From Syntrophaceae bacterium (lineage in GTDB: Bacteria > Desulfobacterota > BSN033 > UBA1163), in assembly GCA_013388635.1 (NCBI GenBank), contig JACAEX010000014.1, positions 62,001 to 126,000 of the forward strand: a stretch of 64,000 bases of DNA, read 5' to 3'. Below the pieces are notes generated by a model. It was not told the origin of the DNA. It did not search any database and worked only from the letters and a program-made list of their open reading frames with translations. Below are positions 51,213 to 56,508 of this stretch, piece after piece; within the stretch, counting starts at the first letter, position 1, and each line of letters begins with the position of its first letter. The position numbers and the translations under genes were made by a program.

Positions 51213-53649
<2,437 letters not shown>

Positions 53650-53761: not shown

Positions 53762-53830
53762 TCATTGCCATTCCGGACTTCATCTGGGATCCAGTCTCTT
53801 TGACTGGATATCCGCTTTTGCAGAAATGAC
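53762..53830. repeat. Degenerate intergenic palindrome between eno and the DUF2267-like gene
   Basis: GGATCCAGTC and GACTGGATATCC arms around TCTTT, with outer parts TCATTGCCATTCCGG and TTGCAGAAATGACC. It resembles the common deltaproteobacterial palindrome GTCATTCC...GGAATCCAG. It could end transcription from both sides as a hairpin, but has no T-run. Confidence 0.65.
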
Positions 53831-53846
53831 CGGGTCAAAACTTATG

Positions 53847-54122
53847 TCAAGAGGTGTTAGACACACCCCTCTCTTCGTCCACCTCCCCAGTCTCAAATAA
53901 TCGTTCATCCCGCTGATAGTCATCCATTTGCGCAGCCCTGATTGATTCCCATCCAAGGCGAAGATCGGGCGGGGAGACCTCGGCAATTTTTTGGGAAAGT
54001 TCTTCTCCAATAATTAATTTTGTAAGCGAGATCACTGCCCTTGCCGCAGCGTCAGCCTCTTTTAAATCCTTCAGGTTCGCCATCTTCATCACCGCCTCCA
54101 GAAATTCTTTTCGCGTCTTCAC
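53847..54122 (-). CDS. DUF2267-like small protein controlled by a fluoride riboswitch
   Basis: 91 residues from the GTG at 54122, which has AAAGGGGGTGATC upstream. Helical and acidic: KTRKEFLEAVMKMANLKDLKEADAAARAVISLTKLIIGEELSQKIAEVSPPDLR resembles half of a DUF2267 domain. The tail (DDYQRDERLFETGEVDEERG) is strongly charged. No signal or membrane helix. The function is unknown. The leader carries a fluoride aptamer and terminator, so it should be induced by fluoride. No fluoride exporter (crcB/fluc, eriC-F) is present in the window. Confidence 0.8.
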   Translation of the reverse strand: MKTRKEFLEAVMKMANLKDLKEADAAARAVISLTKLIIGEELSQKIAEVSPPDLRLGWESIRAAQMDDYQRDERLFETGEVDEERGVSNTS

Positions 54123-54149
54123 ATGATCACCCCCTTTCTCCTTCAAAAA

Positions 54150-54180
54150 TAAAAACTTCTACCGAGATGCGTAGAAGTTA
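54150..54180 (-). terminator. Intrinsic terminator of the fluoride riboswitch
   Basis: AACTTCTAC-GCATCTCG-GTAGAAGTT followed by TTTATTTTT on the minus strand. The 9-bp stem overlaps the aptamer's 3' pseudoknot strand. Confidence 0.9.
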
Positions 54181-54225
54181 TCAGTTCCGTCATGGGCGGA
54201 ACGGTTAGAGGCGAACTTCATCGCC
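54150..54225 (-). promoter_or_regulatory. Fluoride riboswitch (crcB motif) with expression platform
   Basis: On the minus strand: GGCGATGAAGTTCGCC (54225-54210), TCTAACC, stem GTTCCG...CGGAAC, CTGAT, then AACTTCTAC. GGCGA pairs with TCGCC, and loop GAAGTT pairs with AACTTC as the pseudoknot; this is the exact fluoride-aptamer layout. The 3' pseudoknot strand is also the 5' arm of the terminator, so fluoride binding should block termination (an ON switch). Confidence 0.93.
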
Positions 54226-54245
54226 ACAAATTTTGCTTCCAGGCC

Positions 54246-54274
54246 ATTATCATGCAAAAAAAAGAGAAAGTCAA
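54246..54274 (-). promoter_or_regulatory. Sigma-70-type promoter of the fluoride riboswitch transcript
   Basis: On the minus strand TTGACT (54274-54269), 17-bp spacer, GATAAT (54251-54246). Predicted start near 54239, about 14 nt before the aptamer. Confidence 0.82.
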
Positions 54275-54720: not shown

Positions 54721-56508
54721 ATGCCATTTACCATTTCCAAAAAGTATATCGATGCAGATCCGAGAAAGCTTCCCGACTGGCAGATTGCGGATATAGCTGA
54801 AGAGACTATGCCCACTGTAGAGGAATGGCAGGATAAATTGGGTCTCAAAAAGGATGAGATCATTCCTTACGGAAGGTTGTGTAAGCTTGATTTTATGAAG
54901 ATTATTAACCGCCTGAAGGATAGACCCGACGGAAAGTATATCGAGGTCACAGCCATTACCCCTACCCCTCTGGGAGAAGGAAAGACAACAACCAGTATGG
55001 GTTTGATCGAGGGACTTGGAAAGAGAGGGAAAAACGTTGGGGGATGTATTCGCCAGCCTTCAGGCGGTCCAACGATGAATATCAAGGGTACTGCTGCAGG
55101 GGGAGGGAAAGCTCTGCTCATTCCGATGACCGAATTCTCCCTGGGCCTTACCGGTGACATCGACGCCATTACAAACGCTCACAATCTGGCCATGGTTGCC
55201 CTCAACGCCCGGATGCAACATGAACGAAACTACGACGATGCGGAGCTGGCCAAGCGGAACCTCAGACGCCTCGATATCGATCCTACCAACGTGGAGATGG
55301 GCTGGGTGATGGATTTCTGCGCTCAGGGTTTACGGAACATTGTGATCGGACTCGGGGGTAAGATGGATGGCTTTATGATGCAATCCAAGTTCGGCATCAC
55401 GGTAAGTTCTGAGCTTATGGCCATCCTCTCCATTGTCCGGGATCTGAAAGATCTTCGTGAAAGGCTGGGGAAGATTATCGTGGCCTACGACAAGAAAGGC
55501 AAGCCGGTCACGACTACAGATCTCGAAGTGGCGGGTGCGATGTGCGCCTTTATGCGGACTACAATCAATCCCACTTTAATGTATACAATAGAATATCAAC
55601 CTTGTCTGGTCCATGCCGGACCTTTTGCCAACATCGCCGTTGGCCAATCCTCAATTATTGGTGACCGCATCGGCTTGAAGATGTTCGATTATCATATCAC
55701 GGAGAGCGGCTTTGCTGCTGACATCGGTTTTGAGAAGTTCTGGAATGTGAAATGCAGGCTGAGCGGGTTGAAGCCTAATGTTTCGATCCTAACCGTAACA
55801 GTCCGGGCACTGAAGATGCACGGAGGCGGACCTGCTGTCGTGGCGGGGCGACCCATCCCTGATGAGTACACAAAGGAAAACCTTCAGCTTCTCGAAAAAG
55901 GGATTGTCAACATGACACACCTCATCGGGGTGATCAGAAAATCGGGGATCAGTCCGGTGGTCTGCATCAATACATTTCATACCGATACCAAAGACGAAAT
56001 CGCCATGGTCCGGAAATACGCCGAACAGGCAGGCGCTCGTTGCGCAGTTTCTGAACATTGGCTTAAAGGTGGAGATGGAGCATTGGAGCTTGCTGACGTG
56101 GTCCTCGATGCCTGTAACGACAAAGTTGATTTCAAGTTTCTCTATCCTCTCGAGATGCCGCTGCGTCAACGGGTTGAGACCATTGCAAAAGAAGTCTACG
56201 GAGCCGATGGTGTTTCCTGGACTCCGGAGGCTGAAGCCAAAGCCAAAAGGCTTGAGGCCGATCCTAACTTTAAAGATTTCACCACCATGATGGTCAAGAC
56301 CCATCTGAGCCTTACGCACGACCCGACTCGTAAGGGAGTGCCCAAGGGCTGGATCCTGCCGGTCCGGGACATCCTGGTCTTCGCCGGGGCCAAATTTCTC
56401 TGCCCGATGACCGGGACGATCAGCCTGATGCCAGGAACGAGCTCTGATCCTGCCTTCAGAAGGATCGATGTCGATGTCAATACCGGCAAAGTGACAGGGC
56501 TGTTCTAA
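54721..56508 (+). CDS. fhs: Formate-tetrahydrofolate ligase
   Basis: 595 residues, slightly longer than the about 555 of Moorella because of the N-terminus. P-loop-like [16 protein letters not shown] (about residue 80), [47 protein letters not shown], and [24 protein letters not shown] are intact. Ligates formate to tetrahydrofolate with ATP, the entry of the methyl branch of the Wood-Ljungdahl pathway (or gains ATP in reverse). First gene of the operon. Confidence 0.98.

Follow-up and report, generated by a model that had tools for sequence, protein, structure and literature searches.

A fluoride riboswitch upstream of a small, half-length DUF2267 homologue in a Syntrophaceae bacterium

The locus and its switch

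The window analyzed here is a stretch of 64,000 nucleotides from a Syntrophaceae bacterium. It contains, on the minus strand, a transcription unit consisting of a promoter, a fluoride riboswitch aptamer, an intrinsic terminator, and a gene of 91 codons with a GTG start at 54122 (just 5' of which lies AAGGGGGTGATC), flanked by the enolase gene (eno) and a formate-tetrahydrofolate ligase-like gene (Table 1). These elements of the unit had been proposed in a first-pass annotation of the letters alone, and all of them were recovered; the promoter ends about a dozen bases 5' of the aptamer.

Table 1. Positions of the features at the locus (window coordinates)
Feature	Position	Strand	Basis or remark
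Sigma-70-type promoter TTGACT-17-GATAAT	54246..54274	-	10/12 consensus matches
Fluoride riboswitch aptamer (RF01734)	54165..54234	-	50.4 bits, gathering score 34 (covariance model)
Pseudoknot 5' strand GAAGUU, P1 loop	54214..54219	-	Sequence; pairing covaries over 14 distinct family units
Pseudoknot 3' strand AACUUC, common to terminator	54174..54179	-	Sequence, family covariation
Intrinsic terminator AACTTCTAC-loop-GTAGAAGTT, then TTTATTTTTG	54154..54179	-	Stem pairing, family comparison
Good ribosome-binding site, AAGGGGG(TGATC)	54130..54136	-	Sequence
Small protein of 91 aa, predicted to be helical, a half-length homologue of DUF2267 that ends in the conserved acidic tail DDYxRDExLFETGEV	53847..54122	-	ORF, profile search, alignment, selection, structure model
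Enolase (eno), convergent neighbor, outside switch control	52366..53649	+	Near fluoride riboswitches in G014, G015, and G016 as well
Formate-tetrahydrofolate ligase-like gene, divergent neighbor, same order in G014	54721..56508	+	Named from sequence

The covariance model search that had been suggested as a check aligned the full RF01734 model (positions 1 to 64) with a score above the Rfam threshold (E = 5e-11 over the window). The conserved core is present, with the GAUG/GUUC loop, AACCG, CUGAU, and CUAC, together with a P1 of GGCG/CGCC and the predicted 6-bp pseudoknot (GAAGTT/AACTTC in the DNA). Judged by these sequence features, the riboswitch is typical of its class. The terminator stem of nine pairs (also written AACUUCUAC/GUAGAAGUU, then UUUAUUUUUG) includes AACUUC, the 3' strand of the pseudoknot, such that the two structures are mutually exclusive.

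For comparison, 15 fluoride riboswitch units (14 of them distinct) were collected from 17 genomes of the window's family. The 3' pseudoknot strand is also able to pair with a downstream strand as a terminator-like stem in all 15 units, and a clear U-run follows the stem in 12 of them; it is absent in the exchanger and MutS units. In 4 of the 14 distinct sequences, the second pseudoknot pair is G-C instead of A-U, and in the same sequences, the fifth terminator pair is C-G instead of U-A. This three-way covariation indicates that one nucleotide serves both structures, which is what a switch between mutually exclusive folds demands. The switch mechanism that these alignments predict is therefore well supported: without fluoride, the strand AACUUC(UAC) would pair with GUAGAAGUU and transcription would terminate, and with Mg2+-fluoride bound, AACUUC would be kept in the pseudoknot with GAAGUU, so that the terminator could not form and the 91-amino-acid protein would be made. 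Fluoride binding and read-through are assumed here from the aptamer family. The transcription-terminating RF01734 switch of Bacillus cereus crcB shares all aptamer parts, the terminator that uses the pseudoknot strand, and the ON logic with the switch in the window but differs from it in the target gene.

Two variant aptamers of the family, L026:186-267 (32.2 bits) and L035:6998-7075(-) (23.8 bits), score below the Rfam cutoff, and both combine a loop A-to-G change with a change of xUGAU to xCAAU. These changes would presumably turn the A6-U38 long-range pair of the Thermotoga petrophila structure into G-C, a compensatory exchange near the ligand site. Weaker RF01734 matches in G003:C16 (24.9 bits) and G014:C31 (23 bits; also within a long open frame) were rejected, as the conserved core is absent. 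A subthreshold match to the sR2 snoRNA over the start of the small gene was dismissed as chance; it lies inside the conserved coding region, and the RNA class is archaeal.

A half-length DUF2267 homologue

Compared with six relatives, the small gene has synonymous sites close to saturation (pS of 0.71 to 0.85) and nonsynonymous change of only 4 to 10%, which indicates very strong purifying selection and that the gene is real. The protein had been described as DUF2267-like, and a resemblance to this family (PF10025) does exist: residues 5 to 74 align to positions 2 to 73 of the 122-position model (E = 1.3e-4). However, the score of 22.6 bits is below the Pfam cutoff of 29.8, as are the scores of all copies in the family genomes, the last 40% of the model is missing, and the protein has a conserved acidic tail of its own. 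We therefore refer to it as a half-length DUF2267 homologue, which by the Pfam rule is no member. All homologues in the family share the core TRKEFLEAVMKMANLKDLKQAD..ARAVISLTK..IGEELSQKIAE.SPPDLR.GWESI, and the stand-alone copies share the tail DDYERDE.LFETGEV.

The predicted structure is all-helical, with medium confidence (pLDDT 73). A sequence search of the PDB found no solved relative (a single low-E phmmer row had no passing stretch), Foldseek found no significant fold match (best E = 4), and tblastn against plasmids gave no match. The protein looks soluble and matches neither the CrcB/Fluc nor the CLC-F family of membrane-embedded fluoride exporters. Within the literature searched, no paper brings DUF2267 together with a fluoride riboswitch, and a single one refers to DUF2267 at all; the gene for the small protein appears to be a novel target of an established class of riboswitch.

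Fluoride regulon and neighboring genes

The pairing of a fluoride riboswitch with the small gene, as proposed for the window, is conserved: a search of the protein in other fluoride riboswitch loci, also suggested in the first-pass annotation, found it in G007, G008, and G014 and thus, with the window's genome (G000), in 4 of the 17 family genomes, which belong to three genera. This conservation argues that the small protein is part of a fluoride regulon. The riboswitch at the G007 copy is a variant of 32.2 bits, just below the Rfam cutoff. At a fifth copy, in G001:C38, an Rfam search of the leader gave no match, but when it was aligned to five family riboswitches as references, the leader outscored every one of 500 shuffled sequences in three cases; on these grounds, it looks like a decayed fluoride riboswitch. 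The gene order in G014 is riboswitch-DUF2267-riboswitch-prenyltransferase-like-MFS, flanked, as in the window, by the formate-tetrahydrofolate ligase-like gene and eno, and the order in G007 is riboswitch-DUF2267-prenyltransferase-like-riboswitch-Na+/H+ exchanger.

The targets of the 15 units are the half-length DUF2267 protein (4 units), a prenyltransferase-like alpha-alpha toroid protein (4 units), a dynamin-like GTPase (2 units), MutS-V proteins (2 units, identical), a cysteine-rich protein that matches no Pfam family (2 units), and a Na+/H+ exchanger (1 unit). CrcB is not behind any of them, and none of the 17 genomes contains a CrcB at or above the cutoff. The described targets of fluoride riboswitches are exporters, Na+/H+ antiporters, pyrophosphatase, HAD phosphatases, and enolase (PMC11139923). 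A CrcB-free regulon around the target in the window appears to be new.

Only one fluoride riboswitch is present in the window's genome, and no gene other than the small one lies under it. No CrcB, CLC, regulon Na+/H+ exchanger, or prenyltransferase-like protein was detected in this genome, and its best match to the regulon MFS protein is 27% identical. As the genome is a metagenome-assembled genome of 106 contigs with 95% completeness, the absence of an exporter is likely but not proven and could also reflect a gap or an unrecognized family. The MFS gene, which comes right after the prenyltransferase-like gene in G014 and one gene later in G011, is a candidate for a fluoride or stress exporter in the CrcB-free genomes. 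Copies of it in fluoride riboswitch clusters (L031:10284-11453, L029:4093-5283, and L028:6390-7580) are 83 to 87% identical to the G014 copy.

Since G014 has the longer cluster at the same place, of which the window keeps the first part only, the small gene could also be a relic with little role in fluoride defense, left at the head of an operon whose switch once ran an exporter or the prenyltransferase-MFS cluster before those genes were lost. The window's genome indeed lacks the prenyltransferase-like protein and has only distant MFS matches. We regard this explanation as quite unlikely, however, because the protein is under very strong selection, the small gene comes with a complete riboswitch, promoter, and terminator of its own, and the neighboring genes in G014 are under a separate riboswitch.

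Fluoride is known to target enolase, which is often part of fluoride riboswitch operons (PMC11139923), and for this reason, the linkage of eno to the riboswitches in four genomes is probably meaningful or inherited. In the window, as noted in the first-pass annotation, eno is convergent to the small gene, with 197 bp between the stop codons. The further suggestion that convergent transcription from a fluoride-induced unit lowers or otherwise modulates eno expression fared poorly. No strong terminator was found between the two genes, which speaks for it, but eno is not among the genes downstream of the switch, there is no sign of transcription beyond the small gene, and the arrangement is not kept: eno is likewise convergent in G014, with two further genes in between, and divergent from a riboswitch-dynamin unit in G015 and G016. 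The linkage is real, yet there is no evidence of regulation, and we consider an effect of this kind highly improbable. The intergenic region contains an imperfect palindrome without a T-run, ATCCAGTC-AAAGA-GACTGGAT (53789-53813), which has no further copy in the window.

Several further observations concern other members of the regulon. The cysteine-rich protein (L029:1806-2663; 285 amino acids) is encoded directly behind a fluoride riboswitch, and a second copy starts behind the riboswitch in L032 (G001:C25) and runs past the contig end. The MutS riboswitch unit is identical across the whole extracted leader in L029 (G011:C32) and L033 (G001:C153), which belong to different genera, and the genes beside it are near-identical; either a fluoride island was recently transferred or contigs were cross-binned.

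Relatives under other control and a possible role

Copies of the small gene also occur behind c-di-GMP-I riboswitches (RF01051), a class that is absent from the window. In G016, the copy lies about 50 bases behind such a riboswitch (46.7 bits) and 5' of a gene for a protein with a cyclic-nucleotide-binding domain; another G014 copy follows a second one (48.4 bits), and a third is found on the contig-end fragment L063, possibly a further assembly fragment of a locus of this type. The leaders in G016 and L044 each close with a terminator of which the 3' aptamer strand is a part, a layout that suggests ON logic like that predicted for the window, although the aptamer and the ligand are different. 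The c-di-GMP-linked copies are about 82 to 87% identical to the window protein. In addition, G000:C64 and G001:C105 encode fusions of the half-length DUF2267 module with a TctC domain, in which the module stands where a signal peptide is expected; this suggests a cytosolic ligand-binding protein, and a similar fused frame is present in G013. The best relatives outside the family (G368 and G082) have no fluoride riboswitch and are adjoined by amidohydrolase-like genes.

The first-pass annotation had called the protein a fluoride-response factor. Its membership in a fluoride regulon, in four genomes, bears this out in part, but the c-di-GMP-linked copies, the TctC fusions, and the relatives outside the family argue against specificity; on sequence evidence, the protein is a conserved, probably fluoride-induced factor that is not fluoride specific. 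This bears on the idea that it is a dedicated fluoride tolerance factor, for instance one that shields enolase or another Mg enzyme sensitive to fluoride, with the other copies being specialized paralogues. Among the seven stand-alone family copies, four have a fluoride riboswitch and one a decayed leader; enolase lies within a few kilobases of a fluoride riboswitch in G000, G014, G015, and G016; and the small gene is the sole gene under such a switch in the window's genome. We nevertheless think a dedicated role rather unlikely, because the c-di-GMP-linked copies resemble the window protein too closely to suggest a clear shift in function, the fluoride-controlled copies in G007 and G008 have no enolase in the stretches read, and the relatives outside the family lie beside amidohydrolase-like genes.

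Our preferred interpretation, which we consider probable, is that the switch in the window lets fluoride turn on the transcription of a single small gene. Its product would be conserved as part of an unusual fluoride regulon in an uncultured, Syntrophia-like family without CrcB and would be, most likely, a small helical adaptor. Such an adaptor might serve general stress adjustment and have been placed under fluoride or c-di-GMP control or fused to a ligand-binding TctC domain. The adaptor role is speculative, as only the small size, the helical prediction, the fusion, and the rewiring point to it. The distribution of the copies is best read as that of a signal-agnostic module that different sensors may switch on.

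A broader and more tentative proposal, which we put forward with considerable doubt, is that this lineage meets fluoride without Fluc or CLC-F, through a riboswitch regulon of nonclassical genes, and that the half-length DUF2267 protein is a signal-agnostic stress effector captured separately by fluoride and c-di-GMP riboswitches. If so, the same effector would give a common response (for example, slower metabolism or envelope remodeling) to two unrelated signals. The genes under fluoride riboswitches reveal what fluoride harms and how cells cope with it, and in the lineage examined, which lacks the usual exporters, other targets are retained, with one small protein repeatedly chosen by a fluoride or a c-di-GMP switch. 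This pattern gives an uncharacterized protein family a testable function and suggests that fluoride stress and second-messenger signaling share an effector. The frames that fuse the half-length DUF2267 module to TctC are L040:5270-6334, L061:1501-2568, and L039:1778-2305(-), the last of which meets a gap.
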